Shown here: positions 3,797-51,635 of the stretch, piece after piece
Numbering within the stretch: position 1 is the stretch's first letter
Layout: each line of letters begins with the position of its first letter
From: Verrucomicrobiaceae bacterium
Lineage (GTDB): Bacteria > Verrucomicrobiota > Verrucomicrobiia > Verrucomicrobiales > DEV007
Direction of reading: 5' to 3'
DNA length: 61,302 bases
NCBI GenBank assembly: GCA_009936795.1
Contig: JAACDM010000019.1
Location: 1 to 61,302 of the forward strand
Program-made: the position numbers and the translations under genes
Notes under the pieces: generated by a model
Database searches by the model: none
The model's input: the letters and a program-made list of their open reading frames with translations, nothing else
What the model was told of the DNA's origin: nothing

Positions 3797-5101
3797 TCAC
3801 TGATCTGGCGACACGATGATACGGGCGGTCCGACGCCCTTTCAGATAGGCGAAGGCCCACTGCAAGAGGACGGCGAGCTTGTTGCGAAAGCCAACGAGCA
3901 ATAGTAGATGCACAAAGAGCCAGGCAACCCAGGCGAGAAACCCTCGCATTTTGAGCTTGTTTGCCTTCACCACGGCCGCGGATTTGCCTATGATCGCCAT
4001 GATACCTTTGTCAAAGTAGGCGAACTGACGCCGGAGCAGGGGAGCCTTGTCTCGCATGGGGCCAGCCTTGATCTTGATCTCACTCTTGATCAGCTTGGCT
4101 ACGTGGGTGCCCATTTGCATGGCTGCTGCTGCTAACGACGGGACGAGGATACCGTTCTTGTCCTCACAATGCGCGATATCGCCGATAGCAAAGACGTTGG
4201 GGTGCTTGGAAAGACTGCAGTCGGCGCCGACGATCAGCCTTCCACTGCGATCTTTCGTAACCTTGAGGTCTGCAATGACGGGGTTTGCCTCGGTCCCAGC
4301 AGCCCAGATGATCGTGGCGGCATTAAGAGTCTGGCCGTCGATGTCGACTTCGCCTTCTCGCACGTCTTCGACCATAGTTTCGGTGCGAACCTCGATCCCG
4401 AGATTGGTTAGACGTTTCTCTGCATAGGCCGATTGTTCCTCATCGAACATACCTAACAGACGCGGAGCTGCTTCGATCAGGATAACACGCAGATCTTTCG
4501 GACCGACGTTTCGAAAGCCATCGCGTAGTGTGCGTTGGATCAGCTCTGTGAAAGCCCCGGCAAGTTCCACGCCAGTGGGGCCGCCACCCACGATGACGAT
4601 GGTGAGCAGTCGGCGACGCTCATCTGCATCCTCACACAGTTCTGCCTGCTCGACGGCTTGCAGCACTCGGTGGCGCAAATGACGAGCGTCTTCCAACGAT
4701 TTCAATCCTGGTGCGTGAGCCGCCCATTCCGGATGACCGAAGTAGCCGGTGCGTGCACCAAGCCCGATGACGAGATAGTCATACACATGCTCGCGGTCAC
4801 GTGTGTGCACACGTTGCGAGCTGAGATCAATTTTTGTGACCTCTTCCATGAAAACCTGCGCGTTGTCCTGGTTTGAAAGGATCTCCCTTACAGGCGCGGC
4901 GATGTCAGGTGCGGCCAAGCTAGCCGTGGCAACCTGATACAGCAGCGGTTGAAAGAGATGGTGGTTTTGCCTATCCAACAGGGTAACCGCGACGCTGGAA
5001 TTGCTCAATTTCTTGCAACAATCGATACCAGCGAAGCCAGCCCCAAGGACTAGCACCTTAACTTTTCGCGGAGAAACCGGGGCCATCAGGCACCTCCTCA
5101 T
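3797..5101 (-). CDS. ndh: Type II NADH dehydrogenase (NADH:quinone oxidoreductase)
   Basis: This 434-residue FAD enzyme oxidises NADH and reduces quinone without pumping protons, at the cytoplasmic face of the membrane. The FAD-binding motif GAGFAG lies at residues 20-25. A second Rossmann motif, VGGGPTGVE, at about 170 binds NADH. The AIGDIA segment near 310 contacts the flavin. The C-terminal ~60 residues contain hydrophobic stretches (around AWVAWLFVHLLLLVGF) that are the usual membrane-anchoring helices of the family. The start may be Met1 at 5101 or Met6 at 5086. The gene is divergent from the PVC cytochrome operon, and a CRP-type palindrome lies about 70 nt upstream of its start. Confidence 0.9.
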   Translation of the reverse strand: MRRCLMAPVSPRKVKVLVLGAGFAGIDCCKKLSNSSVAVTLLDRQNHHLFQPLLYQVATASLAAPDIAAPVREILSNQDNAQVFMEEVTKIDLSSQRVHTRDREHVYDYLVIGLGARTGYFGHPEWAAHAPGLKSLEDARHLRHRVLQAVEQAELCEDADERRRLLTIVIVGGGPTGVELAGAFTELIQRTLRDGFRNVGPKDLRVILIEAAPRLLGMFDEEQSAYAEKRLTNLGIEVRTETMVEDVREGEVDIDGQTLNAATIIWAAGTEANPVIADLKVTKDRSGRLIVGADCSLSKHPNVFAIGDIAHCEDKNGILVPSLAAAAMQMGTHVAKLIKSEIKIKAGPMRDKAPLLRRQFAYFDKGIMAIIGKSAAVVKANKLKMRGFLAWVAWLFVHLLLLVGFRNKLAVLLQWAFAYLKGRRTARIIVSPDQ

Positions 5102-5282: not shown

Positions 5283-8200
5283 ATGAAGTTCTGTTTTGTT
5301 CTCGTCTGCCTCCTCACGGGAGTGCGTGCGGAAATCCCATTTCCTCACGATGCACCTCAGCCCATGAGTCCAGAGGAAACGGTAGCTTCGTACGACGTTC
5401 CAGAAGGCTTTCGGCTAGAGTTGGCAGCCAGTGAGCCTCTCATTCAATCTCCGTCGGGAGTCTGCTGGGATGCTGCCGGGCATCTTTATGTCAGTGAGCT
5501 CCATGGCTATAATCTCGAAGGCCAACTGGATATAGAATCGCTCAATCAGACTGGCAAGCTGGATGTCGAAGTTCGGCGAGTGCAGGCCGAAGACAAGTTC
5601 AAGAAAGCCGCCTTGTCTGGTACCTATGGTGTCATCAAACGATTGGATGATCTTGATGGCGATGGTCGAATGGATCGGGCAACGGTCTTTGCGTCTGGTT
5701 TGCCACCTGCTTATGGAATGGTCGCCGCACGTGGTGGCATCATCGTAGCCTGTGCACCTGACATTGTCTTCCTAGCAGATCGTGATGAGGATGGAAAGGC
5801 TGAGCACCGAGAAGTGCTCTTCACCGGTTTCGGGTTGGGACCATTAGAGCGAGGGATCAATGCGCCCCAATGGACAAGAGATGGCTGGATCGCCTTCGGT
5901 CGAGGAGCTGATGGTGGGCGCATTTCCGGTCCCTATCTGGTTAAAGATGTAGATCTACCGCGCACAGATTTCCGTATTCGTGCGGACGGCAGCGCGATTG
6001 AGCCAATTACTGGTGGAACGCATACTTTCGGCTTTACATACTCTTCGGCAGGGCATCGCTTTGTGGTTAGCACTACGGCGCCCGCCATCCAAGTAGCACC
6101 GATCGACTATCGCTATCTTATACGAAATCCCATGGCTGCGAGTTCAGGCCTGACCCATGATATCACACCCGATCGCCGTGCCTATCCTCGCTCAGAAGCC
6201 CATCCGTGGCGGAAGAAGCGTGCTGAACATGCCGATTACTTTGAATATTATCGCAGTCGCTATGGCGCGTCTGATAGTGATCCTTCAGGATGGTTCACTT
6301 CGGGTTGTTCACCTTTTGTTTATCGAGATACGGTCATTTCTGCGCTCCAAGGCCAGTTGCTTGCCTGCGATCCGGCACAGAATTTCATCTTTCGGGGTGA
6401 ACTGAATCGGTCAGACGATCCCAAGGAGATTGTCTACCAATTGGCTCGGCATACTAATGAACAGACGAAGGAATTCTGCGCCTCTTCAGACGCGTGGTCA
6501 CATCCGATGTCGCTGAGTCATGGTCCAGACGGAGCCGTGTGGATTGTGGACTACTATCGCGAGATCATCGAAGACTACTCGGCCATTCCTCGTCATTTGC
6601 AGCAACAGTATGGGTTGTATCGAGGGCACGATCGAGGTCGGATTTATCGACTGACGCACGAGGATGCGAATCCATTGCCGAATCCGGACATGACCGGCAA
6701 ATCTACGAGAGAGTTAGTCGATGAACTTACTAGTCCCTCGTCGTGGAGACGGGAAACGGCACTTCGTTTACTACGCGAATCGAAGTCTCTGGCGCCGAAG
6801 GATGCCGCGCCGTCTTTACTGCAGGCGGAGCTCCGTCATGAACAGGGAACACTAGAGAACACGAGTGTGCTTCGAATGCTCGATGATTCCGATCCTATCA
6901 CAAGAATGCATGCTGCCCGCTATGCGGAACCGGATCTCCGGAAAGGCGATACCGCCTTGTTAGACAAGGTCGTTGAGTTGGTCAGCACGGAAGAAGATCC
7001 TTGGGTTCTTCTTCAGCTAGCGCTTTCACTAGGTGAATCCAAAAGTCATCGGGCTGTTCAAAGCCTTCTTTCTTTAGCGAGAAAACACGGAGACATCCGA
7101 TGGATGACTACCGCCATACACTCGTCTCTCTATTTGCGAGAGCAGATTGTCATGGATGGCTTGAAAGAGGACGTGGGAAAGGGAGCAGACTTGCTAGGGG
7201 CAATTGAACAGAGTGGGGAGAAACTGGCCGTATCTGGAGCCAAAACCATCGTCGAGACGGCGTCACAACCTTTGGATGATGCTACGTTTGGGGAGTTTGT
7301 GAAGGGCTTGGAGCAGCCACGTGACCCTGCCCATGGCGCTGAGGTCTTTCAGCAGCATTGTGCAATTTGCCACCAAATAGGTGGCATCGGTGTGAATGTC
7401 GGGCCGGATATTCTTGGTGAAATTGGCGTTGGAGAGGAAGCTCTGCTACGACAAATCCTGGTGCCTGAGGAACGGATTCGTCCAGGCTATGAAACAACGG
7501 TGGTTACACTCAATGAGGATGCCGGAGAGATGGCGGGCATTCTCAAGGAAGATGGGGCGACTAGCCTAACGCTAATCCTTCCAGGGGGCGTCGAACAGGT
7601 CGTGCTGCGTCAACGCGTTGAGAATACTCGTCATCTCACGCGATCGTTGATGCCTCCGAACTATCAAAATCTACTCTCTCCGAAAGATGCTGCGGATCTG
7701 CTTGCTTGGGTTCAGACTGCGCACCGCGTGACGACACCTCCGACAATAGATTCTTCGCCGAAGATCGGGCAAAGGCTAAGTGATGCTCACGTCGCTCAGT
7801 TTGCTGGATTGGCTCTGAAAGGCATCTTCAAGGAATACCCTAACAAGCCTTCGAATGTGATTCGCGATCCCGATGGCGTACGTAGTCCGCGTGAAATGCA
7901 TCCTGTGTTCTATGGTTGCTTTGACTGGCACTCCTCGGTCCATGGGCACTGGATGTTGGTGCACCTATTGAGGAACTATCCAGGCGCCTCGGTCGCGAGC
8001 GAGATCGAAAGCGCGCTTGAGAAGCAGTTGCTGAGAGAACCGTTGCTGAAGGAAACGGCCTACTTTGAGGAGAAGGGGAACGCCTCCTTTGAGCGCATGT
8101 ATGGCTGGGCATGGGCGTTGCGTTTGGCGACGGAGCTGCGGACGTGGGATGACCCACGTGCCAAGCGGTGGGCTGAGGCCTATCGTCCCCTCGAGGATAA

Positions 8201-8291
8201 GATCGTGGCACTGATGAAAGCTTATCTCCCGCGACTTGGTTGGCCGATTCGAACCGGCGTGCATCCGGATACGGCCTTTGCATTAGGGTAG
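5283..8291 (+). CDS. PVC-type heme-binding dehydrogenase fused to DUF2891 (ends at an in-frame TAG)
   Basis: The open frame encodes 1002 residues with a short signal peptide. Residues about 35-450 resemble the PVC 'membrane-bound dehydrogenase' propeller domain. About 470-650 look like HEAT-type helical repeats. A cytochrome-c-like domain follows with CAICH (Cys693, Cys696, His697) and the downstream GPDI segment of the Pirellula/Verrucomicrobium heme-binding family. From about residue 832 the sequence changes to DUF2891, with HPVFYGCFDWHSSVHGHW and later WDDP and HPDTAFALG. The DUF2891 homology is cut by TAG at 8289 and continues in frame to 8780. It probably acts in the periplasm, with electron transfer to an unknown substrate system. 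Propeller and HEAT assignments are inferred from pattern. Confidence 0.75.
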   Translation: MKFCFVLVCLLTGVRAEIPFPHDAPQPMSPEETVASYDVPEGFRLELAASEPLIQSPSGVCWDAAGHLYVSELHGYNLEGQLDIESLNQTGKLDVEVRRVQAEDKFKKAALSGTYGVIKRLDDLDGDGRMDRATVFASGLPPAYGMVAARGGIIVACAPDIVFLADRDEDGKAEHREVLFTGFGLGPLERGINAPQWTRDGWIAFGRGADGGRISGPYLVKDVDLPRTDFRIRADGSAIEPITGGTHTFGFTYSSAGHRFVVSTTAPAIQVAPIDYRYLIRNPMAASSGLTHDITPDRRAYPRSEAHPWRKKRAEHADYFEYYRSRYGASDSDPSGWFTSGCSPFVYRDTVISALQGQLLACDPAQNFIFRGELNRSDDPKEIVYQLARHTNEQTKEFCASSDAWSHPMSLSHGPDGAVWIVDYYREIIEDYSAIPRHLQQQYGLYRGHDRGRIYRLTHEDANPLPNPDMTGKSTRELVDELTSPSSWRRETALRLLRESKSLAPKDAAPSLLQAELRHEQGTLENTSVLRMLDDSDPITRMHAARYAEPDLRKGDTALLDKVVELVSTEEDPWVLLQLALSLGESKSHRAVQSLLSLARKHGDIRWMTTAIHSSLYLREQIVMDGLKEDVGKGADLLGAIEQSGEKLAVSGAKTIVETASQPLDDATFGEFVKGLEQPRDPAHGAEVFQQHCAICHQIGGIGVNVGPDILGEIGVGEEALLRQILVPEERIRPGYETTVVTLNEDAGEMAGILKEDGATSLTLILPGGVEQVVLRQRVENTRHLTRSLMPPNYQNLLSPKDAADLLAWVQTAHRVTTPPTIDSSPKIGQRLSDAHVAQFAGLALKGIFKEYPNKPSNVIRDPDGVRSPREMHPVFYGCFDWHSSVHGHWMLVHLLRNYPGASVASEIESALEKQLLREPLLKETAYFEEKGNASFERMYGWAWALRLATELRTWDDPRAKRWAEAYRPLEDKIVALMKAYLPRLGWPIRTGVHPDTAFALG

Positions 8292-8780
8292 AGCCTCGAT
8301 TATGCGCGTGCAGTAGAGAATAATGCGTTAGAGCGACTGATTCTGGATCGTTCAAAGTCCTTCTACGCAAGCGATGAGCGTTACCCCGCAGCTTATGAAC
8401 CGTCGGGAGAGGATTTCTTCTCCGCAGGACTTAATGAAGCCGATCTCATGCGCCGCGTACTCCCACAAGAAGAGTATGTCGCTTGGTTAGATAGATTTCT
8501 GCCGGAGTTTGGAAATCTTTTTGAGCCTGTTGAGGTGACCGATGTCACCGACGGAAAGCTTGTCCATCTTGCTGGTCTGAATCTCTCACGCGGTTGGACG
8601 TTGAATGGCATTGCTTCTGCACTCAACGCGTCTGATCCTAGGCAGCGAGAGATTAGAGAAGCCGCCGTAGATCATACTCAAGCGGGCCTCGGGTATGTCT
8701 TCAGTGGGCACTATGAGGGCGATCATTGGTTGGCAACGTTTGCGATCTACACTCTTTCCCTGGTTGGTATCTCGAGATGA
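8292..8780 (+). pseudogene. C-terminal part of DUF2891 after the in-frame TAG
   Basis: This stretch continues the frame of the preceding gene directly beyond the TAG at 8289-8291. It supplies the missing C-terminus of DUF2891, including SLDYAR, EPSGEDFFS, LMRRVLP, GLNLSRGW and HWLATFAIY, all recognisable family segments. No frameshift is needed. Its natural TGA at 8778-8780 overlaps the ATG of the symporter at 8777 (ATGA), the arrangement of translationally coupled genes. That supports the full 1165-residue frame having been translated recently or still being translated. An internal start (for example 8448) could express only a fragment. Confidence 0.75.
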
Positions 8781-10636
8781 ATTTCGGTCCGCTAGCGACG
8801 TTTGTCGTCTACCTTGTTGTCGTGGCCTTTCTCGCGTGGGCTTCTGGCCGACAACGCCGCACAGAGGGATTTGTTAGTGAATACTTCCTTGGAAATCGCT
8901 CGCTCGGGGTGTGGGCCCTTGCTTTGACATTTGCCGCGACCGCCGCTTCAGGGGGAACCTTTGTAGGCTTTCCTGCCTTGGTCTACTCTCATGGATGGGT
9001 CCTCGCTCTGTGGATTTCAGCCTATATGTTGGTGCCCATCGTTGGCATGGGGTTGCTCGGTAAAAGGCTCAATCAGGTCTCCCAGATCTCACGAGCCTTG
9101 ACGTTGCCAGAGGTCTTTACGAAACGGTTGAATAGCCCTGCTGCCGGCGGTGTGGCCACGTCACTCATCGTCTTCTTCATGTTCTGTTATCTTATCGCGC
9201 AATTCAAGGCCGGTAGTAAAATTCTCTCTACGTTGCTCTGGGATGTGCCAGCCTTTCAAAGTGCGGTGAGCTGGGTGCATGCGATGAAGGCACCGATTCC
9301 CTGGGTAGCTGGAGCTGAAGCGGACTACTTGTTGTGCCTTACGCTCTTCGCCGTGGTGGTTATTGCCTATGTCGTCTACGGCGGCTTTCGTGCTGTGGTC
9401 TGGACAGACGTCATGCAGGGTATAATCATGGTGTTAGGCGTGGCAATCATGCTCATCCTCGTGTTGCAGCAAACGGGAGGACTGACAAAGGCGAATGAGC
9501 GGCTTGCTACGATGACGCCGCCGAATCATGGGACAGCTGTTCTAGAACGAGACGGTGGTGATTCCATGTCTTTACCGAAAGGGACTTGGGTTTCAACGGA
9601 TACGGGGGGCCTTATTCTATTGGCCGAGCCCTGCCTGTTTGATGCTGATACCTCTGCAAGTCAGCCCGTGGGCATTTTAGAAATCACCACTCCGTGGGAG
9701 GGCGAACGCGAGCGCGTGCGAACGATTTCTGGTTACATGGCGACTCTGACTGACGTGCGACCTTACGCCCATGGAGCGAATCAGGCTGGAGTTTACCTTA
9801 CGGCACCTGGACCCGATGATGAATCTGATCTCGGGTATCTTACGCTAACGTTAGCTTTTAGCTTTTTTGTCTTCTGGGCCTTTGGCACGGCCGGTCAGCC
9901 GGGCAACATGGTGCGTCTCATGGCTTTTCGCGAAACCAAGACGCTACGCGCAGCCATCATCACGGTATCGCTCTATTTTTCCTTCATCTACTTTACGCTC
10001 GTGGTGATCTTCTGTTGTGGGCGCACCTTGCTCTCAGGGATGGAGGTCGATTTGGATCGCACCATGCCTGAGCTTGCCACCGTGCTGACTTCGGGTGCCG
10101 GCATGCCGTGGCTTGCCGGACTACTCCTGGCCGCACCGTTTGCCGCAGTGATGTCGAGTGTTGATAGCTTTCTGCTAGTAGCATCTTCATCGCTTGTGCG
10201 AGATATTTACCAGCGGTTTGTTCGGCCTGACGCCTCAGAGTTGCGATTGAAACGCCTAAGCTACATGGCCACTGCGTTGATTGGTGTGGCTGCCTTTCTC
10301 GCCTCTATGCGGCCACCGGACACCCTGCAGGATGTCATCGTCTTCGCCAGTGGCGGCGTGGGTGCGGCATTCTTGGTACCCATGTCCCTGGCGCTTTTCT
10401 GGAAGCGTGCCAATGGCGCTGGCATCATCGCCGGAATGCTGGGGGGGACGATTACCCATCTGGTCCTTCATGCATTGAGCCTTAAGCCTCTTGGTCTCAA
10501 CCCGTTTGTTTGGGATCAGTTAGGATCGATCTTGGCGCTCATAACAGTGACCTTGCTGACGAGAGCACCAGAGAGAGCAATCGTGGAGAGGTATTTCGGG
10601 AAACAAGCCGTTGCTGGATTCGACGAGAAGGGGTAG
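8777..10636 (+). CDS. Sodium:solute symporter family transporter
   Basis: This 619-residue polytopic membrane protein has about 13 hydrophobic segments in SSF order. Recognisable parts are an N-terminal ASGRQRRTEGFVSEYFLGNR segment, then GGFRAVVWTDVMQG and the conserved FWAFGTAGQPGNMVRLMAF region. These are typical of pantothenate- and solute-type SSF carriers that import a substrate with Na+. A long hydrophilic insertion (residues about 235-350) lies between two helices. I chose ATG 8777 because it overlaps the upstream TGA as ATGA and begins just before the first helix; an upstream in-frame ATG at 8726 would add out-of-family residues. The substrate is unknown. The gene is followed 10 nt later by the SLC13 carrier. 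Confidence 0.88.
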   Translation: MNFGPLATFVVYLVVVAFLAWASGRQRRTEGFVSEYFLGNRSLGVWALALTFAATAASGGTFVGFPALVYSHGWVLALWISAYMLVPIVGMGLLGKRLNQVSQISRALTLPEVFTKRLNSPAAGGVATSLIVFFMFCYLIAQFKAGSKILSTLLWDVPAFQSAVSWVHAMKAPIPWVAGAEADYLLCLTLFAVVVIAYVVYGGFRAVVWTDVMQGIIMVLGVAIMLILVLQQTGGLTKANERLATMTPPNHGTAVLERDGGDSMSLPKGTWVSTDTGGLILLAEPCLFDADTSASQPVGILEITTPWEGERERVRTISGYMATLTDVRPYAHGANQAGVYLTAPGPDDESDLGYLTLTLAFSFFVFWAFGTAGQPGNMVRLMAFRETKTLRAAIITVSLYFSFIYFTLVVIFCCGRTLLSGMEVDLDRTMPELATVLTSGAGMPWLAGLLLAAPFAAVMSSVDSFLLVASSSLVRDIYQRFVRPDASELRLKRLSYMATALIGVAAFLASMRPPDTLQDVIVFASGGVGAAFLVPMSLALFWKRANGAGIIAGMLGGTITHLVLHALSLKPLGLNPFVWDQLGSILALITVTLLTRAPERAIVERYFGKQAVAGFDEKG

Positions 10637-10646
10637 GCGCATAGAA

Positions 10647-12476
10647 ATGATTGATCAGACCCTCATCGTATACGCCCTGCTTTGCGTGGTCATCTTGGCA
10701 TTCTTTCGAGAATGGGCGCCACCTGATGTCGTTGCCTTAAGTGCGATGATGGTGTTGTGGTCGACTGGCGTTCTTTCGATGAGCGATGTTCTCGCTGTGT
10801 TTAGCAACCCGGCGCCCATCACGGTGGCTGCGATGTTTATTCTGAGCGCGGGGCTGGAACGCACGGGCTGTATCGATGTGATGGGAGACATGTTCTCAAA
10901 AGTCGCAGGCAATACAGAAGTACGGGTATTGATCGTGATGATGATCCTGGCGGCAGTGCTATCGGCCTTTGTCAACAACACGCCGATTGTCGTCGTCTTC
11001 CTTCCCATCGTCGTGTCCCTCTCGCGTCAGAGTGATTTGAAGGCATCGCGTTTACTTATCCCTCTGTCATTTGCCTCAATTCTTGGTGGAACGTGTACTC
11101 TCACCGGAACGTCGACCAACCTAATCATCGATGGTGCAGCCCAGGACGTCTTCGCTACCAATGGCGTCGCCTACAAGCCTTTCACCATGTTCGAGGTGTC
11201 CAAGCTTGGCCTGATCTACGCCGTGATCGGCTTCGTCTACATGCTCACGATCGGGCGGAAACTTTTGCCCACACGGGAATCGCTGCAAGGAGAGGTTTCT
11301 CAACAGAAGAAGCGACATTTCCTGACGCAAGTCATGGTCGAGGAGGAGTCTCCTCTTGTGGGCAAAACACTGGTTCAAACCTTGATGAAGGAGTTTCCTG
11401 AGGCCCGGATACTTGAGGTTCGGCGACGAGGTACGGTGATGATAACGCCTCTGGACGAGCTTGTGGTAGAATCACGTGACCGCATTCGGTTGACGGTGCA
11501 CGGAGCAAGCTTTGAAGATTTCAAGAAGACGGGCGGCCTGCAGTTTCCAGCGCAACGTCATTTGAAAGTGTCCACCCTGGATACTCAACAGCTCAGCCTG
11601 ATGGAGGGTGTCATCGGTCCACAGTCCTCGCTTGTTGGGAAGACCTTGCGTGAATTGAGGTTCAGGCAGCGATATGGCGTGCTTATCCTAGCAGTACACC
11701 GTAAGGGGGTCGATTTAAGGAAAGGCTTAGAAAGCGTGAGATTGAGAGTAGGGGACACTCTTCTCCTGGAGGGCACTGTTGATGGGATGAACCAACTTAA
11801 CGAGGCGCACGACTTTCTGATCATGGACCGCCCACCTCGGCGTGACGTGAAGCCCATCTCCAAACGCTGGATTGCGACTGGTATTGTCCTTGCGTTTATC
11901 ATTGGTGCTTCGATTGGCGGCGTACCTATATCAGGTCTTGCGTTGTTGGCGGCCGTGGCCATGTTAGCAACGAGGTGTCTCGAGCCAAAGGAAGCTTATG
12001 GTTCAGTCCAATGGACGATCATCTTCATGATCTTTGGCATGCTTGCCCTGGGCAAAGCCATGGAAACATCCGGAGGCGCGAAACAGATAGCGGATTTAGT
12101 CGAGAGTGGATTTGGGAATGCAAGTCCTATCATCATCTTGGCCGTGGTATATCTACTCAGTTCGACCATGACTGAGCTGATCAGTAACAACGCGGTGGCT
12201 GCGCTGATCACGCCCATTGTCATCGGTATCGCCGCAAATTTAGGAATGGATGCCCGGCCGTTTATCGTCGCTGTCATGTTTGGTTGTAGTGCGAGTTTTG
12301 CGACACCGATTGGGTATCAGACAAACACCTATGTTTATGGTGCAGGCGGCTACCGCTTTTCGGATTTCCCTAAGATAGGTGTACCGCTGAACCTTATCCT
12401 GTGGATTGCGGCCACGTTGTTTATCCCGCTGCTTTGGGATGCTGGGCTGAGCTATGCAGAATGGTGGGGGAAATAG
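10647..12476 (+). CDS. SLC13/DASS-family carrier with two TrkA-C (RCK_C) domains
   Basis: This 609-residue protein resembles bacterial divalent anion:Na+ symporters. Two membrane halves surround a cytoplasmic insert of about 200 residues with two TrkA-C-like modules, marked by ESPLVGKTL at about 225 and SSLVGKTLREL at about 330. The family motifs FVNNTPIVVVFLP and GGTCTLTGTSTNL are in the first half. ELISNNAVAALITP and ASFATPIGYQTN are in the second. Family members move dicarboxylates, sulfate or similar anions; the ligand cannot be read here. ATG 10647 is preferred to an upstream in-frame start at 10611, which lies inside the symporter gene. It ends with TAG, directly before the YcxB-like gene. 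Confidence 0.88.
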   Translation: MIDQTLIVYALLCVVILAFFREWAPPDVVALSAMMVLWSTGVLSMSDVLAVFSNPAPITVAAMFILSAGLERTGCIDVMGDMFSKVAGNTEVRVLIVMMILAAVLSAFVNNTPIVVVFLPIVVSLSRQSDLKASRLLIPLSFASILGGTCTLTGTSTNLIIDGAAQDVFATNGVAYKPFTMFEVSKLGLIYAVIGFVYMLTIGRKLLPTRESLQGEVSQQKKRHFLTQVMVEEESPLVGKTLVQTLMKEFPEARILEVRRRGTVMITPLDELVVESRDRIRLTVHGASFEDFKKTGGLQFPAQRHLKVSTLDTQQLSLMEGVIGPQSSLVGKTLRELRFRQRYGVLILAVHRKGVDLRKGLESVRLRVGDTLLLEGTVDGMNQLNEAHDFLIMDRPPRRDVKPISKRWIATGIVLAFIIGASIGGVPISGLALLAAVAMLATRCLEPKEAYGSVQWTIIFMIFGMLALGKAMETSGGAKQIADLVESGFGNASPIIILAVVYLLSSTMTELISNNAVAALITPIVIGIAANLGMDARPFIVAVMFGCSASFATPIGYQTNTYVYGAGGYRFSDFPKIGVPLNLILWIAATLFIPLLWDAGLSYAEWWGK

Positions 12477-13096: not shown

Positions 13097-16000
13097 ATGA
13101 AATTTCCCTCTGCGGCTCTCGTGTCGTTGTGTCTCTCCCTCGCTCTTTTGACCATCCCGACTGCTCGATCAGAGCAAGTTGTCTTTAGTGAGATCATGTA
13201 TAATCCTCCCGGAGAAATGCCGGAGCTTGTTGAGGTACAAAACCTTACGTCAACGCCTTTTGACATCGCCCTATGGGAACTGGATGGCGGTGTGGACTAT
13301 CGATTTCCAGACTTTAGTGAGGCTCAGCCTACCGATAGCTTCCTAAGGGCTTTTGAACGGATCGTGCTTACCAATGTAGAACCCAAGGCGTTTCGAGAGG
13401 CTTATGGCATCCCTGAAGCCATTCGCGTATTTGGCCCATGGGAGGGAAGATTGAGCGACGACGGCGAACGGGTGACCCTGAAAGACAAGAATGGAGTAAA
13501 ACGGTGTTCCGTGCGGTATAACGATAGAGATACTTGGCCGGTGGCGGCCGACGGGGCAGGGCATACGCTAGTGTTGACCGATGATAGTTTGGCTATCGAT
13601 GACTATCGAGCATGGGGTGTCAGCCCAACTCCTGGCGGTACGCCTGGCAACCCTGAGCCAGCCCAACCGGAAGAGCCTTATCCCAATCCATCTGTTGATC
13701 TGACTGTGGGCATTCCGTTCATCGAGTACGGTGACAAATGGGATTTCCATGATGGAGATCGAGATCTCGGAACGTCTTGGAGAGATGCAGACTACATCTT
13801 TACGCACCCCGGTTGGACTCGCGAGAACGCAGCTGGCAACAATGGAGGGCTCTACGGGTTTGAGAATAGTGGGGTGCCAGAACCTGGCATGCGCACCGGT
13901 CTAAACGATGTCGACCAGTTAACCTATTATTTCCGTAAGGAGTTTGAATACACAGGAGACACCTCAGGTGCTTCGGTCACGATCGATCTTATCAATGACG
14001 ACGGAGCGGGTTTCTGGTTGAATGGTCAGTGGCTCGGAGGTGTGGCGACGACGCCGGGATCGGGTCACAATGATACAGCATCGCGTACTGTTAGCAATGC
14101 GGGAGAGGAACTCGCTGTCATCCGCTCGAATAGCCCACCTCTCGTGCAGGGCAAGAATGTGTTAGCTGCTACTCTCAAACAGACGAATACGACTAGTTCC
14201 GATGCTGTCTTTGGCGCAAGAATGAGCATCTCAACGCCTCTTGCGACAAGCGTTATCATCAATGAGGTTCTTCCAGCCGGTGCGGGTGAAGGCTTCGTCG
14301 AATTCTACAATCCGGGAAACAGTGATGTTGATCTTAGCGGGTGGTTTCTGACTGATGACCCTGGCAATCTCACTAGAGGGACTATTCCCGCCGGCGTGGT
14401 CGTTCCGGCGAAAGGCCTAGTAACTGTTGGTTTCTTGGAGTCCTTACTGCGTATCTCCGGAAATACGAGCGTGTTTCTAACGCAGTCTGACGGCACCACG
14501 GTAGTAAATGCCATCAGCACGCCGATGCCATTGGATGGACGCTCTTTAGGGCGCAAACCAGAGGGCAGCGGTTCTTGGTTTCTTTTCACCGGACCTACAC
14601 CTGGTAGCGGAAATGTTAGCTCGGGAGGCGGGGGCTCTGCCTTGGTTATCAATGAACTTCATATAAGCGACGAAGGGCTCATTGATTGGGTGGAGTTTCA
14701 CAATAGTTCACAAGCGAGCGCGTCGCTCGATGGACTCTTTTTGGCTAGCGCACGGGACTTTTCGGACAAGATTGCCTTGGGAGATGCGATCGTAGGTGGA
14801 GGTTTTGCGAGCGTGGAAACAAGCGTGGATGTTGGGGATGCAGACGGCAATGTGAGCCTCTTTGTGTTCGATGAATCGAATACAGTGATTCATGCAATCA
14901 CGGTTTCACTAGATTCAGATCGTCGCCATGTGGCTGCGTTTCCTGACGGTTCCAATAGATTTTTCGTGTCTGAAGTCGGCTCACGTAACGAGGCGAATGA
15001 GCCCGACCGCGAGACCGACATCGTCATCACAGAACTCATGGTCGAGCCACCTACTGGGCATCGCGATGGCGAATATGTCGAGCTGTATAACAAAGGCATA
15101 GAAACGGTCAATCTTTCATCGTGGAAGTTTGATCGTGGGATCAACTACACCTTTCCTTCGGGTACTACGCTAGAGGCGGGCGCTTATTTAGTCGTCGCAG
15201 CCAATAAGGCATTCACTTCGGAAGCCCATCCAGCGGCTCGTGTGCTTGGACCCTATTCAGGAAACTTCGCCAATGGAGGAGAGCGGGTGCGTTTGGTCGA
15301 TGCCTGGGGGAACTCGGCAGAAGAATTGCATTATCACGTCGGAGGAGACTGGCCAGCCCTCGCTGGAGGTCTGGGTAGCAGTTTGGAACTTCGTCACCCA
15401 GAAATGGACAACACCATGGGAAACGCCTGGATCGCTTCGGATGAGTCTAACAAGTCAACGTTCCAGCCTTTCAGAATCGAGGACCGTTACTTGCAGCTTC
15501 GTAGGGCTGGTACACCGCGCGACTACGAGGAATTGCACATGCATGCCGTTGGTGATGCTCACCTCGCGATCAGAAGTATGCGGCTCACCTCCAGCAACAA
15601 TAATACAAATTTCTTGCCAAACGAAGGACGGGAAGTGAGCACGAACGGTGATGCCGCGAATGGATGGCTTTGTCAGGGCACGCATTATGCAAGCAAGCGA
15701 GTCGGAAACGAGTTCCATCTCATTTCGGATGGTCACGGAGATGTGAAAGCCAATCGATGCGAGATCGATGTGGTACCTATTGCCCGAAACAATGACCTGA
15801 GTTTTCGGTTTCAAGCGCGTTGGATTTCGGGCAAGCCAACGCTCGTCGTGAATACTTGGGATCGCTCGTTTGGGGGCGTTATTCACTTGCCTATTCCGAA
15901 GAATCTCGGCACTCCAGGAGCCGCTAATTCGGGAGCGACTGAAATTCCTGCGCCCACGGTGACAGGACTTCGTCACAGCCCTGCTGTGCCAACTTCATCA

Positions 16001-19000
16001 GACGCTGTGATTATTACTGCGTGGGTAGACTCGGCGATGCCGTTGACTTCAGTAAGGGTTCGTCATCGCCTGGACAACACCGCAGGAGACAATGCCTGGG
16101 GAATGACGGTCATGGCAGACGGCGGGAGCAACGGTGATGAGATTGCCGGAGATGGCATCTACACGGCCACGCTCGCTCAGTATCAGGGAAACAACAGCGT
16201 CGTACAGTTTTATGTGGAGGCAACTTCTGGTGGTGGTGTTAGTCGACAGCCGACACGAGCTCCCAACCGACCAGCATTGTGGGTCGTGGACAACAGCTCC
16301 ATTCCGTCGGATCTCCGAAGCCAGCGATTCGTTATTTCTGAACGGTCTCTTAATGCCTTGGGCGGAGCGGGAGAAAGCGGCACGTTTGACTTCGCCTTCC
16401 CACGGCTCTCGAATCATTACTTCAATGCAACGTTCATTAGCAATGAACAGGACATCATCTACAACTGCGAGCTTCGTAAAAGCGGTAGTCCTTGGACTCG
16501 TTCTGGAGGGAGTAATCTCTCACGAGCAAAGTGGAAGACGCCAGGGGATCGTCGCTTCCGTGGCTATTCCAAGCGCGCGATCGATAATGATGCCGGAGGC
16601 GGACGGGCCTACCACAACCGCATCATTCGGTATTGGCTTTATCTTTTTGGGCATCCAGCCAATGAAAACGAGTTTGTTCGAGTCATTGTAAACGGTGGCA
16701 ATGCCGATCTTCGCGAGGATGTGGAGCCAAACGCAAATGACTTTCTCAAGCGAAATTGGGAAGACGGCCAGCTAGGCGAACTCTACAGAATCGATGACGA
16801 ATGGTGGTTTGAAGACGATTGGAGTCGCGACAACCGAAATGCGGATTGGTCTTACAAAGACACCGATGAGCCTGAGCGCTACCATGCAGAGTGGATCAAA
16901 CGATCACGAGAGACGGAATACGACTACTCCTCCTTCGTCAATTGGGTGAAGGCCGTCGGTGAGAACGATTTTACACGAGACGAGATTGAACGGATGGCGG
17001 ATATTGACATGATGGCCGCAAACGCGGTGGTGCGTGGCTGGTGTGATGATTGGGATACTCTCACACGCAATCGTGGAAAGAACGGCTATTTTCTCCGAAG
17101 ACAATCCGATGGGCGTTGGATGCTCATCCAATGGGACTCTGATCTCACCTTTGGGAATGCCAATGCGGAATTCATTGGGAACTTGTCAGGTGTACGGAAT
17201 TTCTTTAGAAAACCCTATGTAGAGCAGCGGGTGAATTACTACCTCGGTCAGATGATCGATAAGTACACGCACAATTCACCTCGGCTGGATGCGTGGTTCC
17301 AGATGGAAGAGGAAGCGTCAGGATCCTACTCTAGTAACCAGGGTACTTACACGAGTTGGAACTCACAGCGCCTTAGCAAGGCCAGATCGACGATCGGCAA
17401 CAGTGCGCTAAATGAAGATTTCAATGTCACTTCAGGCAATGGAAGCAGTGCAACGACATCCAACGATACTTTTGAACTCCGGGGTACGAGTCCTTACAAT
17501 GCCTTCAGCGTCCGAGTCGCGGAACATCCAGAAGCAGAATGGGAATTCACCGCAGAATCTGCGTGGAACCTAACAGGGATTGAACTTGCCGAAGGCGTGA
17601 ACAACCTTCGGGTCGAGGCTGTGGACGCCGACGGTAATGTGGTTGGAAAGGAAACTTTCCGCGTGACCAAAACAGGCAATGCTGCCCCTGTGATCGACAT
17701 CAATCCCAGGCCTAATTCCTACCATGTTGCCTTGCATGATTCTATTGAGATGGATTTGAGAGACTCCTACGATCCGGAGGGCAGCACTTTAACGTATGGC
17801 TGGGCGGTGATTCCTGAGTCTAACGTAGAGCTAACTCTTGCAGAGAATGATGCGGTCGCTAGCGCGACATTTGCCCGTCCGGGGCTGTATGAGTTCACGG
17901 TGACAGCCTCTGACGATTCTGCTGGAGCTGACAGTGAAATTAGAGAGGCCGCGGTCTATGCCTTGAACGGTTGGAGCCCGTTTAAAGAGCCTCTACTAGA
18001 AGGCCATTGGGCTCTACAGAATGTATTTGTTCGTGATGGTTCGGGTGCTGACACCTGGTATTCTTTAGAAGATCGGCCTGGCAAACTTACCATGATGGTG
18101 CAAGACGCGTTGAAGTCGTTTTCCCCAAACACGAGAGCGTATCCTGCTATTCTACGCCCTCTCCCAAAGTCCACGGATTGGGCTTTAGAGACCGATGTCA
18201 ATCTCGTTTCCGTCCAGACTGGAGATTTTATGGCTGGAGTCACCGTCGAGATGGTGGAGAACGGATCACTTGTGCGCTACGCCATGGTCATGGAGGACGG
18301 CAAGCGATTGGCCGCTCGCCGTAACAACGCGTCCCTCCAATCCCTGTCTTGGGGCGGGGGATCTGCCGCAGTACGCATTCGTCGCGCAGGCGATGAGCTT
18401 CGCTTTGACTATCAAGAGGGCGCTGGTCAGTGGAGCTTGTTGCACTCTCGGCCCGTTGCTAACGAGGTGTCTGCCAATCAAGGTGGACTCTTTGTATCGA
18501 CCGATAAGGTTGAGAGTGTCCGTGTGGAATTTGACTATGCGCTGCTCGTCGATCCTCTAGCAACCTCGCCAGCTCTGACCGATTTGCGTATTTCTGAAAT
18601 CATGTATCACCCCGCAGATAGAGTGGGTTCAGAATACATCGAACTACATAATCGTGGACCAGCTGTGATAAGCCTTGCTGGCGTCACCTTTGAAGCCACG
18701 AGGCCATTTGAGACCATGGTGCTCGGCGAAGAGGAATTGGCCCCAGGTGAGTATGCCGTCGTCGTTGCTGATATCGCTGCTTTTCAAGCTACCTATGGCA
18801 GCGAGATCCGAATCCTTGGCCAATGGACCGGAGGCGCCATTTCAAATGGAGGGGAACGCATTGTGTTGCGCGATCGGTTGGGAAATATCATTCACGACTT
18901 CACGTTCTCCGATAATGAACCCTGGCCGACTGCTGCAGATGGTGAAGGTCCCTCGCTCGAGATCATTGATGTCGGTGGAGACTACGAGGATGCTGCCAAC

Positions 19001-19432
19001 TGGTTCGTGAGAATGGGAGCCATAGGAACGCCCGGCGCTGCCCCGAATTCCGATCTGATTCCTGACATCGATACCGATGGTGATGGCCTCACCGATGTGG
19101 AAGAAGCAGTCTTGGGAACCTCGCCCACATTGGCCGACACCGATGGCGATGGCATGAGTGATGGAACAGAAGTCGCTGCGGGAACAGATCCCACCGACCG
19201 CACGTCCGTTCTTAAGATTCTCGGGATTATCCGTTCTCAAGATGGAGGCTTGATTACCACCAGCTGGTCTTCAGTTCCGGGAAAACGTTACACGCTTCAA
19301 GGCAACACTAGCCTCGAGGAGGGCAGCTGGATTGATGTTATCACCATCACCGCATCAGGCATGACCACTGAAAGAACGGAAACTGAGAGCAGTAATCGCC
19401 ATTTCTACCGTGTGCGGGTTCTAGCTGACTAG
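13097..19432 (+). CDS. Giant secreted lamin-tail/CotH-kinase surface protein
   Basis: This 2111-residue protein starts with a signal peptide. Lamin-tail-like domains occur at about residues 27-158, 382-498, 515-631, 642-778 and 1827-1968, recognised by repeated SEIMYNPP / INEVLP / YVELYNKG beginnings and GGERV endings. A beta-sandwich module at about 270-378 (DDGAGFWLNG) resembles the next gene's product. A CotH-like kinase domain spans about 1072-1412, with RGWCDDWDTLTRN and LIQWDSDLTFG, where the acidic residues are candidate catalytic or metal ligands. A PKD-like region is at about 1528-1622. Thrombospondin-3-like calcium repeats (DTDGDGLTD, DTDGDGMSD) are near 1989-2035. This architecture is typical of PVC extracellular proteins; adhesion or secreted-protein phosphorylation is inferred. 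Confidence 0.85.
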   Translation: MKFPSAALVSLCLSLALLTIPTARSEQVVFSEIMYNPPGEMPELVEVQNLTSTPFDIALWELDGGVDYRFPDFSEAQPTDSFLRAFERIVLTNVEPKAFREAYGIPEAIRVFGPWEGRLSDDGERVTLKDKNGVKRCSVRYNDRDTWPVAADGAGHTLVLTDDSLAIDDYRAWGVSPTPGGTPGNPEPAQPEEPYPNPSVDLTVGIPFIEYGDKWDFHDGDRDLGTSWRDADYIFTHPGWTRENAAGNNGGLYGFENSGVPEPGMRTGLNDVDQLTYYFRKEFEYTGDTSGASVTIDLINDDGAGFWLNGQWLGGVATTPGSGHNDTASRTVSNAGEELAVIRSNSPPLVQGKNVLAATLKQTNTTSSDAVFGARMSISTPLATSVIINEVLPAGAGEGFVEFYNPGNSDVDLSGWFLTDDPGNLTRGTIPAGVVVPAKGLVTVGFLESLLRISGNTSVFLTQSDGTTVVNAISTPMPLDGRSLGRKPEGSGSWFLFTGPTPGSGNVSSGGGGSALVINELHISDEGLIDWVEFHNSSQASASLDGLFLASARDFSDKIALGDAIVGGGFASVETSVDVGDADGNVSLFVFDESNTVIHAITVSLDSDRRHVAAFPDGSNRFFVSEVGSRNEANEPDRETDIVITELMVEPPTGHRDGEYVELYNKGIETVNLSSWKFDRGINYTFPSGTTLEAGAYLVVAANKAFTSEAHPAARVLGPYSGNFANGGERVRLVDAWGNSAEELHYHVGGDWPALAGGLGSSLELRHPEMDNTMGNAWIASDESNKSTFQPFRIEDRYLQLRRAGTPRDYEELHMHAVGDAHLAIRSMRLTSSNNNTNFLPNEGREVSTNGDAANGWLCQGTHYASKRVGNEFHLISDGHGDVKANRCEIDVVPIARNNDLSFRFQARWISGKPTLVVNTWDRSFGGVIHLPIPKNLGTPGAANSGATEIPAPTVTGLRHSPAVPTSSDAVIITAWVDSAMPLTSVRVRHRLDNTAGDNAWGMTVMADGGSNGDEIAGDGIYTATLAQYQGNNSVVQFYVEATSGGGVSRQPTRAPNRPALWVVDNSSIPSDLRSQRFVISERSLNALGGAGESGTFDFAFPRLSNHYFNATFISNEQDIIYNCELRKSGSPWTRSGGSNLSRAKWKTPGDRRFRGYSKRAIDNDAGGGRAYHNRIIRYWLYLFGHPANENEFVRVIVNGGNADLREDVEPNANDFLKRNWEDGQLGELYRIDDEWWFEDDWSRDNRNADWSYKDTDEPERYHAEWIKRSRETEYDYSSFVNWVKAVGENDFTRDEIERMADIDMMAANAVVRGWCDDWDTLTRNRGKNGYFLRRQSDGRWMLIQWDSDLTFGNANAEFIGNLSGVRNFFRKPYVEQRVNYYLGQMIDKYTHNSPRLDAWFQMEEEASGSYSSNQGTYTSWNSQRLSKARSTIGNSALNEDFNVTSGNGSSATTSNDTFELRGTSPYNAFSVRVAEHPEAEWEFTAESAWNLTGIELAEGVNNLRVEAVDADGNVVGKETFRVTKTGNAAPVIDINPRPNSYHVALHDSIEMDLRDSYDPEGSTLTYGWAVIPESNVELTLAENDAVASATFARPGLYEFTVTASDDSAGADSEIREAAVYALNGWSPFKEPLLEGHWALQNVFVRDGSGADTWYSLEDRPGKLTMMVQDALKSFSPNTRAYPAILRPLPKSTDWALETDVNLVSVQTGDFMAGVTVEMVENGSLVRYAMVMEDGKRLAARRNNASLQSLSWGGGSAAVRIRRAGDELRFDYQEGAGQWSLLHSRPVANEVSANQGGLFVSTDKVESVRVEFDYALLVDPLATSPALTDLRISEIMYHPADRVGSEYIELHNRGPAVISLAGVTFEATRPFETMVLGEEELAPGEYAVVVADIAAFQATYGSEIRILGQWTGGAISNGGERIVLRDRLGNIIHDFTFSDNEPWPTAADGEGPSLEIIDVGGDYEDAANWFVRMGAIGTPGAAPNSDLIPDIDTDGDGLTDVEEAVLGTSPTLADTDGDGMSDGTEVAAGTDPTDRTSVLKILGIIRSQDGGLITTSWSSVPGKRYTLQGNTSLEEGSWIDVITITASGMTTERTETESSNRHFYRVRVLAD

Positions 19433-26567: not shown

Positions 26568-27578
26568 ATGCGAAATCTCAGATTACTGACTGGCGTTCTC
26601 ATCGGTTTGGCCTGCGTTAATCCTGTTCAGGCTGATAAGCTTGAGAAGAAGGAAGTGGAAAAGATCATGAAGTCGCTCCAGTCGATTAAAAAGGCGGTGA
26701 TGGCACGAAATTCTAAGCAGAATGGGAGTGCCTTGAAAGGTTTTACCCAACATGCGGCCAGCCCTGTTGCAGCGAATGCCTTCTACCTATCGTGTTTAAA
26801 GAAACTGCGGTTCACAGATGAAGGCAAGCGGGCCGAGGCTTGGCGAAAGTATCGGGAAGGCAAGGATGACACCTTCAACCAGGTCTACCATCGCGAGGCC
26901 AAGCAGATGGAGTTACGTTACTTGATTCTAACGATCAAGGCAGCTCAGGTCGAAGACCGTCGCGACATGATGAAGCCGCTCGTCAGTTTTATCGATAGTA
27001 TGCTAGAGTTAGACGGTCGTGGATTTGAACACCTGGAGGACTGTGATTCCTCCATATTTACCGAGTTTGCCAAGATAGAGAACACGATTGATCCAGGGGA
27101 CTGGGAGATGAGCCCCACCAATATAAAAGGTATCTACGATCAGGGTATCCTTCCCCACATGCGAAAGCATCGGGACCCTCGTCTGGTAGATGGTTGGACG
27201 TCCAAGATCCGGCACATTAAACAGTATCATGGGCTAGCGAAAGCAGGACGATTGAAGGAAGAGCGCGAAAAGGAGCGCGAAGATCGCCGGAAAGGGGACA
27301 AGAAGAATACAGACGACTACAAGGCCGAAGCCAAAGAAGAGAAAGATCCATACGAGGAGTTTCAAAACGAGGACCTACCAGAATTAAAATGGGAGATGTG
27401 TGAGGATTTGGTAGAGTACGGGTTTCAGGCCGAGGCGCTTCCGCTTATGCTCGACGTGATCCGTGATCATCCGAACTACAAAGAAATTACCTCGTGGCTG
27501 GCAAGCCTGGAGAACGAACTCGCCAAGGCACTAACGGAACTCAATGGCGGGGTATTGCCTCAGCAAACTGAATCCTAG
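26568..27578 (+). CDS. Secreted protein of unknown function
   Basis: This 336-residue protein has a signal peptide (cleavage likely after VQA, about residue 21). I chose ATG 26568 because it starts the hydrophobic leader; an upstream in-frame start at 26451 would add 39 residues without leader character. The mature protein is rich in Lys, Glu and Arg and mostly helical by composition. It has a very charged segment (KEEREKEREDRRKGDKK) at about 230-246, probably a linker or coiled coil. I do not recognise a family. It is convergent with the Ser/Thr kinase gene, 5 bp away. Confidence 0.7.
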   Translation: MRNLRLLTGVLIGLACVNPVQADKLEKKEVEKIMKSLQSIKKAVMARNSKQNGSALKGFTQHAASPVAANAFYLSCLKKLRFTDEGKRAEAWRKYREGKDDTFNQVYHREAKQMELRYLILTIKAAQVEDRRDMMKPLVSFIDSMLELDGRGFEHLEDCDSSIFTEFAKIENTIDPGDWEMSPTNIKGIYDQGILPHMRKHRDPRLVDGWTSKIRHIKQYHGLAKAGRLKEEREKEREDRRKGDKKNTDDYKAEAKEEKDPYEEFQNEDLPELKWEMCEDLVEYGFQAEALPLMLDVIRDHPNYKEITSWLASLENELAKALTELNGGVLPQQTES

Positions 27579-29987: not shown

Positions 29988-31550
29988 TCACTGACCTGGC
30001 TGTTCGATCCAAGAATCGTTGACTAGTCGACTGATAATCACCTGCCCCCGACGCTTGTCTGCGTCTGGAGCGAACTGAAGTGCGAGCATGAGGCGAGCTC
30101 GCTGCTTCTCTCCCTGTTTTTTTAGCTCACGGAACAGCCTTATCATCATCTCCCCATCGGGAGTGCCAACCTCAGCATACCCATAGAGAGGAACTTTCCC
30201 GCTCTTGTCCTTAATCAGGTAGCTCCGATACGTTGCTGCATCAGCATAGTCATAGCGATAGTAGTCTTGGACTTCGACCCAAACTCGAAATACTTTGGCG
30301 TCCGTTAGACCTTGCTCTGCAAAGGACTCAAGAGTCATGTTACTATGACCGACCCAGCTTTCCCAGTCTAACAGATAGTTACTATTGGGTCTTTCTTCGA
30401 AATCTGCGTAAAACGGACGCAATGTTTCAGAATACTCTCCGCTCACGGTGTGAAAGTAAGTTTTGCCTATAAGTCGTTTATCGAACCGTAGAGACGTTTT
30501 GTCGATAAGTCGAGATTCAACGTTGGTGAGAGCGTAATACTCCTGCATTAGTGGCAGGACTGATTCGCGGTTACGAACGGAAACGGACTTTGCTTCAGGC
30601 GAAATGGCCTCATGAAATTTTTGAAGCGCAGCCAAAACTGGTTGAGCTTCGGGGGCGGCGCTTGGCGGCACTTCTTTCTGATTGATCGGGGTGACCTTCG
30701 GCTCTTCTACAGGTCCGTCTTGATTGGTCGACCACTGTTGGTAACCATGGTAGCCAAAGTAGCCCCCTAGTCCAAGAGCAGCGAGAATGAACACGAGTGC
30801 CACCCAGTTAAGGTTTCCCGTTTTGACCACCGCCTGATCGCCCCAGTGTTTCGCGACCTCTGAGTCTAGCTCCATGGAGTCCAGTGTCACGAGCGGCGGG
30901 AGAGAGGCTCCCACGGACTCAGGCCGCTGACGCTTGATTCGTTCCGGCTGCGTATCCGAACTGGTACTGACTGAAGCCCCCCCTGCGTGCTCAGACGGAA
31001 CGACTTCGGCATGCTGAGCAAGAGGGGGCAGCGGCTTGCGTCGGGCTTCTTTGAGTGGCGTTTGAGGTTCTGCAACCTCTGCGGAGGCCGTTCCAGTTTC
31101 ACCGGCTTGCAACCTAACAATCTCCTTACGAATCAACTCTTGGAATTGGGAATCAAGATCAGAAGACGAATCACCTTCCGAGGAAGCTTTACGAAGATCA
31201 TCAGCGGTACGAAGCGCCTGATTCCTTCCCGATGGCAGGCCACTTCTGGTCCCTCGCTCAGAGGGGGCAGTGTCGTCGTCAGGAGACATCATTGATGCAA
31301 GTCGACGACGTTCATGGTGTTCTGTTGCACCACGATTGGACGATCCAGCTGATGTGGGAGAGGAAGCCATGGCTTTGGACTCTCCTTGAACGCGATTTCG
31401 AGACCCTTTTTCCGGAGAACTTGTCTGACTCTCGGTAGGAATCTGGACAGTAGCGGAACAGAATGGGCAGGGGAGCTCAAGCCCAGCTCCTCGATCATCG
31501 ACTACGAGGTGGCCATCGCATCGGGGGCATCTGAAGAATAGATCTGCCAT
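29988..31550 (-). CDS. Zinc-ribbon membrane protein
   Basis: This 520-residue protein starts with a zinc ribbon made by CPRC (Cys8, Cys11) and CPFC (Cys28, Cys31). A low-complexity, Ser/Glu/Pro-rich linker of ~200 residues follows, then one transmembrane segment (about 245-268, VALVFILAALGLGGYFGYHGY). The extracytoplasmic domain of ~250 residues contains many Tyr/Arg residues and no family I recognise. It lies 96 bp upstream of the sigma-factor gene on the same strand and may belong to the same signalling unit. The Ser/Thr-rich linker would be a plausible kinase target, but that is inference. Confidence 0.75.
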   Translation of the reverse strand: MADLFFRCPRCDGHLVVDDRGAGLELPCPFCSATVQIPTESQTSSPEKGSRNRVQGESKAMASSPTSAGSSNRGATEHHERRRLASMMSPDDDTAPSERGTRSGLPSGRNQALRTADDLRKASSEGDSSSDLDSQFQELIRKEIVRLQAGETGTASAEVAEPQTPLKEARRKPLPPLAQHAEVVPSEHAGGASVSTSSDTQPERIKRQRPESVGASLPPLVTLDSMELDSEVAKHWGDQAVVKTGNLNWVALVFILAALGLGGYFGYHGYQQWSTNQDGPVEEPKVTPINQKEVPPSAAPEAQPVLAALQKFHEAISPEAKSVSVRNRESVLPLMQEYYALTNVESRLIDKTSLRFDKRLIGKTYFHTVSGEYSETLRPFYADFEERPNSNYLLDWESWVGHSNMTLESFAEQGLTDAKVFRVWVEVQDYYRYDYADAATYRSYLIKDKSGKVPLYGYAEVGTPDGEMMIRLFRELKKQGEKQRARLMLALQFAPDADKRRGQVIISRLVNDSWIEQPGQ

Positions 31551-50224: not shown

Positions 50225-51631
50225 TCACCTCAAAATGTCGTGCAGCACATTCCCGTGGACGTCCGTGAGACGCACATTGCGGCCAGCATAGAGATACGTG
50301 AGGTCTTCGTGATCGAGGCCTAGCTGGTGGAGCACCGTGGCCCAGAGATCGTAGTAGGTGGTTGCTTTGTCAGCCACATGGTAGCCGAAGTCATCGGTAG
50401 ATCCGTAGACGGTCCCGCCACGCACGCCACCGCCTGCGAGCCAGACGGAGAAGCCATAGGGATTGTGGTCGCGGCCATTGCTGCCTTGTGAGAACGGGGT
50501 GCGACCGAATTCCCCCGCCCAAATGATCAACGTTTCGTCAAGCAATCCGCGCTGTTTGAGATCGAGAATGAGCGCGGCAATGGGCTGGTCCACCTGGTGA
50601 GCCATGGCGCCATGGCCACGTTCAAGATTGCCGTGCTGGTCCCAAGGATTGGCGGCGCCTCCTGCGCCGATACTCTCCGTGAGGCAGCTCAGCTCGATGA
50701 ACCGCACGCCTTTCTCCACAAGCCGTCGAGCCAGCAAGCACTGACGTGCGTACGCGGCCTTCTGCGTGTCCGCGTCATCTAGACCGTAGAGCTTCTTAGT
50801 GGCCTCAGATTCGCCCTTGAGATCACACAGGTCGGGCACGGCCGCCTGCATGCGATACGCCGTTTCATAGTTCCGGACGGCGGCCTCAACCTGGGCGTGA
50901 TTACGCGTCCGACTGGAGACACTCTGGTCCAGCTTGCTGATAAAGCTGAGGCGTCGCCTCTGTGACATATCGCGCTCCTTGGGAGAGATGTTTGCCACCG
51001 CTTCGCTTGTATCCCCCTTGATGACGGAGGCTTGATGCTGTGCGGGAAGGAAGCCGCTGCTGAATAGCCCAACCCCACCGTGGGGGACGACGGCGTTTCC
51101 GCTCTGCAGGACAACGAAACCGGGCACATCTCGATTGGAAGTTCCCAGTCCATAATTGACCCAGGCACCAGCGCTAGGATGGCCGATGAACGGAAATCCG
51201 GTGTGCACGACATAGTTGCCCTGCGCGTGTTCGTTGACTGGCGTGGTCATTGAGCGGATCACGGCCCTCTCATCGGCACACCAGCTGCCGAGCTTTGGAA
51301 ACACCGAACTAACCTCTAAGCCGCTTTGCCCGAACTTGTTGAAGGTGAATGGACTGGGGAATATATTTCCATTATTATTAAATTGAGTTCTCTCGACCTT
51401 TACAGGCATGGGTTGGCCTGCGTAGCGATCCAGCATGGGCTTTGGATCGAACGAGTCGAGGTGCGACACGCCACCCGACATGTAACAGAAGATGACATTC
51501 TTCGCCCGAGGACGGGCATGCGCCAAAGGACGAGCGGAAGCTCCTTGGAGGAGCCCTGAAAGCGCCATGAGCCCGAAGCCAGTCGAGCATTGCGAGAGCA
51601 TTTCGCGGCGAGAGAGAGTGGGGGAGATCAT
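50225..51631 (-). CDS. DUF1501 (sulfatase-like) secreted protein, second copy
   Basis: This 468-residue paralogue of the product at 38641-40119 has a leader beginning SRREMLSQ that fits a twin-arginine-type signal. Shared segments include [30 protein letters not shown] and [18 protein letters not shown]. The C-terminal end [15 protein letters not shown] is nearly the same as that of the other copy. It lies 4 bp downstream of the large DUF1549/DUF1553 gene. Confidence 0.88.
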
Positions 51632-51635
51632 CGGT

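Follow-up and report, generated by a model that had tools for sequence, protein, structure and literature searches.

The stretch of DNA analysed here (the window) comprises 61,302 nucleotides of a Verrucomicrobiaceae metagenome-like assembly and carries, on the forward strand, a frame of 1165 codons (5283..8780) that is interrupted by one internal TAG (8289..8291) and ends in TGA (8778-8780). The sequence-only reading described it as a single frame joining a cytochrome-bearing dehydrogenase of the PVC type to a complete DUF2891 domain, with the TAG at codon 1003 as its lone lesion, and the translation together with Pfam and NCBIfam searches agrees on both points, since no other internal stop occurs in the frame. 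The label "dehydrogenase" is presumably a matter of the family's reputation and title. The frame opens with what appears, by eye, to be a signal peptide (5283..5330), followed by a DUF7133 domain (PF23500; 5367..6665, 298.3 bits) that overlaps a match to the PVC-type CxxCH model TIGR02604 (181.4 bits against a cut-off of 122.2), by HEAT_2 repeats (6876..7094, 35.7 bits), and by a TIGR02603 heme-binding domain (7323..7718, 99.5 bits against a cut-off of 68.15) containing the CxxCH motif CAICH (7359..7373). In residues of the fused protein, Pfam places DUF7133 at 29-461, HEAT_2 at 532-604, and a cytochrome c match at 683-713, ahead of DUF2891. The heme protein's end, a short linker, and the mature start of DUF2891, without a signal peptide, meet at 7719..7796. 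DUF2891 itself (PF11199; 7797..8750) covers profile positions 2-324 of 325 at 430.6 bits, far above the cut-off of 25, with the TAG lying inside it; read with X at the TAG, it covers positions 3-324 of 325 at 429 bits. Owing to the TAG, the window genome holds no uninterrupted DUF2891 frame, and a profile search of its whole assembly found no second copy.

A divergent NDH2-like flavoprotein gene (3797..5101, reverse strand; Pfam) lies upstream. Downstream on the forward strand are an SSF-family symporter gene (8777..10636), whose ATG (8777-8779) overlaps the TGA of the fusion as ATGA (8777..8780), and a CitMHS/TrkA_C transporter gene (10647..12476; Pfam). The symporter is PanF-like and falls below the panF equivalog cut-off (268.9 against 328.05 bits), while the SSF superfamily model TIGR00813 recognizes it (194.1 against a cut-off of 184).

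The same fusion is found intact in a congener, G052, where the ortholog (L090:4030-7509) is open over 1159 amino acids, with a sense codon in place of the TAG, and is about 83% identical to the window protein. Both genomes share the gene order NDH2-like, fusion, SSF, CitMHS. Because G052 holds the fusion intact in this order, we regard it as a real evolved protein; a local accident or an assembly chimera is out, as the congener's own contig shows the identical junction and flanking genes. The divergence between the two copies is biased toward synonymous changes, with a dN/dS of 0.069 across the fusion, 0.035 in DUF7133, 0.085 in the heme segment, and, within DUF2891, 0.053 before and 0.112 after the TAG; differences are mainly synonymous in every segment, the linker included. 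This bias, along with a frame that stays open over 1159 amino acids, excludes chance. Judged from these substitution ratios, both modules are shown to be under purifying selection, and the fusion is probably functional in G052.

Elsewhere the architecture appears to be rare. DUF2891 was detected in 7 of 74 genomes in a search of the family and in 67 of 386 in a search of the order, and in both only the window genome and G052 had it in a frame longer than 1000 amino acids; in a draw from the phylum (23 of 387 genomes with DUF2891), such a frame came from the window genome alone. No heme fusion was recognized among the unusually long frames inspected from two planctomycete orders, in which 26 of 170 and 54 of 102 genomes carry DUF2891, and none of the papers listed from open-licence PubMed Central describes a heme-DUF2891 fusion. 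The known carriers are two genomes, both metagenome-like multi-contig assemblies. These searches, which the sequence-only reading had proposed for Verrucomicrobiota, recovered the fusion once more, in G052, and support it as a genuine protein. That reading had also held that relatives with two separate genes, and with an independent start and signal peptide for DUF2891, would make the fusion a local accident. Such relatives exist, including the other two congeners searched, G050 and G051, whose stand-alone DUF2891 genes have a signal-peptide-like start and other gene surroundings, and almost all other DUF2891 observed; the fusion is nonetheless no local accident, being intact in G052. Because DUF2891 stands alone in G050, in G051, and in nearly all other cases, the fusion is a derived state, limited to the window genome and to G052. 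Known parts are combined here in a new domain architecture.

A phylogeny of DUF2891 pairs the window copy with that of G052 (SH-aLRT 99), joined next by G050 (86) and then by G051 (93), and on this tree the two fused copies are thus sister to each other and nested among the stand-alone copies of their congeners. With PVC-type CxxCH proteins (TIGR02604 plus TIGR02603), the fusion shares its N-terminal domain, its heme domain, and the CxxCH motif. Unfused relatives of 829-853 amino acids in three other genomes (G059, G004, and G013) end after the heme domain, the place that DUF2891 occupies in the window genome and in G052. In the junction alignment, the unfused heme proteins stop level with the end of the fusion's heme domain, and the residues that follow the linker match the start of the G051 and G065 DUF2891 proteins after their signal peptides. 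By a crude criterion, a hydrophobic, signal-peptide-like start is present in 90 of 124 other DUF2891 proteins; it is not universal, as only 2 of 14 DUF2891 proteins labeled "same class" have one. Since DUF2891 enters the junction with its mature start but without its signal peptide, the simplest account would be that two exported proteins were fused once within the genus, with loss of the second signal peptide at the junction. A heme-protein relative in another genus (L154, G054:C271, 2132-4783) was also seen to contain one in-frame TAG, which divides it into pieces of 497 and 385 amino acids.

The sequence that follows the internal TAG shows no trace of decay. Among columns conserved at 90% or more across 121 other DUF2891 proteins, the window copy breaks none of the 41 before the TAG and none of the 34 after it, and with all 75 intact it is, by conserved residues as by profile, a regular member of the family. 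At 80% conservation, it breaks 1 of 56 columns before and 3 of 50 after the TAG, the same as in G052. The terminal branches of the two fused copies in the DUF2891 tree are equal (0.14 each). With conserved columns intact and branches equal, an old pseudogene can be rejected, and a fusion gene with a single TAG should not be annotated as one. Past the TAG, dN/dS is about double its value ahead of the TAG, which could be read as a slight relaxation; both values are low, and conserved columns are broken at a similar rate in G052. Nor does DUF2891 restart independently after the TAG, as the first available start yields a piece of only 110 amino acids. Because the downstream sequence has not decayed, the TAG would be either a nonsense change too young for decay or a base error in the assembly.

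That the stop is a true and very recent nonsense change in this strain, by which the genome has lost its only DUF2891 and the translational coupling to the symporter has been broken, is in our judgment an evenly balanced proposition. The base was called within a 61-kb contig, and TAG is a normal stop here, ending 14 of the 32 frames longer than 200 amino acids in the window (the interrupted fusion frame counted among the 14). A young change would leave the same pattern as a base error. Against it stands the lack of a second lesion and of relaxed conserved columns. A real TAG would cost the one DUF2891 detected in the genome its second half, with the heme module untouched. We consider it quite possible, if somewhat short of an even chance, that the assembly is wrong at this base and the window gene intact, as the single stop, the absence of decay after it, and the equal branch lengths would then be expected. 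Isolated stops are not rare in this 6.6-Mb assembly, where 8 of 137 sulfatase matches contain internal stops, although these 8 include partial and multiply broken matches, and many may be true pseudogenes. The column that holds the TAG is variable among the 121 relatives, with Q in 59 of them and F, L, M, or H in others.

Constraint on the half downstream of the TAG would also fit readthrough, with a full-length protein made alongside the truncated one. We hold this to be extremely improbable: G052 has a sense codon at the position, no relative aligned conserves a stop there, and a CTA anticodon is absent from the 26 tRNA genes found in the window genome, an incomplete set. An alternative code or a suppressor tRNA was rejected, given that TAG ends 14 of the 32 window frames and that none of these 26 tRNA genes reads it.

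The natural stop of the fusion does overlap the start of the symporter gene as ATGA, as the sequence-only reading had it. Its description of this overlap as a preserved coupling does not hold, and the DUF2891-SSF adjacency that it proposed to check holds only in part. The gene order is kept in G052, yet with a gap of about 690 bp between the fusion and the SSF gene and no ATGA overlap, and the window contains no counterpart of this stretch beyond short chance matches. In G050 and G051, the SSF gene likewise adjoins a CitMHS gene, and the pair lies away from DUF2891, downstream of an RraA-like gene and one unassigned gene in the former and of a CotH/LTD gene in the latter. Since the genes are spaced in G052 and the symporter follows other genes in G050 and G051, we take the ATGA overlap to be a feature of the window only. 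In other genera, relatives of the SSF gene sit behind DUF997 in all five loci scanned (L146 and L148-L151), and an M19 dipeptidase gene also lies ahead of the SSF relative in both loci scanned for it (L146 and L150).

Fusions between domains are clues to function, and to our knowledge neither DUF7133 nor DUF2891 has an assigned one. The fusion by itself does not tell what DUF2891 does. Cj0554 of Campylobacter jejuni is a member of solved structure (PDB 8IEU/8IEV) and is a full-length DUF2891 like that of the window, which matches 8IEU by sequence with an E value of 4.5e-67. Cj0554, like nearly every relative, consists of this domain alone, whereas in the window the domain forms the C-terminal part of a heme protein. 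For comparison of folds, we modeled a 69%-identical congener DUF2891 (L039, from the same contig as the G051 copy; mean pLDDT 94), and this model matches 8IEU with a Z score of 45.7. It also resembles the GH88 protein 2zzr (Z 15.6) and a cellobiose 2-epimerase (Z 14.2), although Z scores of 14-16 between mostly helical toroids may mean only a common arrangement. DUF2891 is predicted by the model to form, over most of the domain, an (alpha/alpha) toroid possibly akin to that of GH88 unsaturated glucuronyl hydrolases and of AGE-type sugar 2-epimerases; their identity to DUF2891 is only 8-12%, and the fold alone shows no function. Several His, Asp, Glu, and Arg residues are among those invariant over 55 DUF2891 sequences, which suggests that DUF2891 is an enzyme.

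DUF2891 has other fusion partners. Frames with more than 120 amino acids ahead of DUF2891 occur in 20 loci, and in the 6 of these that were scanned with Pfam, a partner was recognized in the window, G052, and two planctomycete proteins, and none in L175 and L049. One planctomycete protein (L024:4282-7041) joins SASA to DUF2891; the other (L048:1284-4568) has a beta-lactamase domain and a DUF4185-like stretch below the cut-off ahead of DUF2891. Both are exported multidomain proteins that, like the one in the window, end in DUF2891; their partners are of esterase or hydrolase type and lack heme, unlike that of the window. Three further long frames came from the search of the Gemmataceae order. 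Inspected by eye, L288 and L289 prove to be open reading in GC-rich sequence with a signal-peptide-like DUF2891 start inside, and in L287 it is only a run of unknown bases that links a sulfatase gene to DUF2891. The sequence-only reading had tied DUF2891 to electron transfer, and as a general tie this is not borne out by its company elsewhere, where its fusion partners include an esterase (SASA) and a hydrolase of beta-lactamase type and its neighbors Nramp transporters and 5-oxoprolinase subunits.

In analyzing the gene neighborhoods of DUF2891, we placed 79 loci from the best 80 of 542; because these are the best matches, the 80 lean toward PVC bacteria. No family forms a majority (Pfam) among the close same-strand neighbors, 34 proteins upstream and 18 downstream, for which 9 of the best 80 loci were unplaced. 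In 3 of the 79 placed loci (L035, L060, and L076, from Bacteroidota and an alphaproteobacterium), genes of the Nramp, LamB_YcsF, CT_C_D, and CT_A_B families stand clustered beside DUF2891, with one representative of each cluster confirmed by Pfam. LamB_YcsF, CT_C_D, and CT_A_B (PxpA, PxpB, and PxpC types) together make up 5-oxoprolinase, and the cluster is one pointing to 5-oxoproline metabolism. In three planctomycete loci (L014, L019, and L067), an Nramp-family gene directly follows DUF2891, and that of L014 is 46% identical to the Nramp in the L076 cluster.

According to PMC12795558, the DUF2891 gene of C. jejuni (cj0554) follows DUF969 and DUF979 genes, and a cj0552-4 mutant lacking all three has lost growth on 5-oxoproline, a loss which the authors credit to DUF969/979. 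DUF2891 might then act on a 5-oxoproline-related compound everywhere, with the fused module and the symporter serving such a pathway here. The gene clusters and the C. jejuni phenotype favor this proposal, which we nevertheless judge unlikely: the mutant lost three genes together, no such neighbor is seen at most of the 79 placed loci, and LamB_YcsF occurs in none of the family's 7 genomes with DUF2891, while the two among the 74 family genomes that have it lack DUF2891. The window genome, one of those 7, gave no LamB_YcsF match and hence no pxpA-type gene. With a solved structure and the C. jejuni triple mutant at hand, the role of DUF2891 beside 5-oxoprolinase and Nramp can be tested by deletion of the single gene.

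Taken together, it is fairly probable, on the comparative evidence, that the locus encodes a two-module exported protein, formed once within the genus when a heme protein of the PVC CxxCH type and an enzyme of the DUF2891 family were fused end to end. A single signal peptide would export both modules. The propeller-like DUF7133 part may oxidize a small molecule, with electrons passing through the heme, and DUF2891, as an (alpha/alpha) toroid of the GH88/sugar-epimerase fold class, would be a separate enzyme of hydrolase or isomerase type acting on a related small substrate. Products could then be taken up, perhaps via the neighboring symporter. A more specific version, in which DUF2891 is an exported enzyme for small molecules of amide or lactam type (such as 5-oxoproline or its peptides) and is joined to a heme oxidase, such that one protein releases and oxidizes the substrate and the adjacent Na+ symporter imports the product, strikes us as very doubtful. 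Under the two-module reading, the fusion shows DUF2891 working outside the cytoplasm and tolerated as a C-terminal module in exported proteins of unrelated kinds.

Among other sequences encountered, the DUF2891 of L034 is 52-55% identical to that of the window; its record is titled as a Klebsiella pneumoniae metagenome-assembled genome, a title that looks doubtful. Elsewhere in the window, frames of 336 (26568-27578) and 520 amino acids (29988-31550) gave no Pfam match. A 2111-amino-acid protein (13097-19432) has four LTD domains, CotH, and TSP3 repeats, and a CotH/LTD gene is also the one upstream of SSF in G051. Two pairs of DUF1501 and PSCyt1/PSCyt2/PSD1 genes (38641-42410 and 50225-55631) are typical of PVC bacteria.
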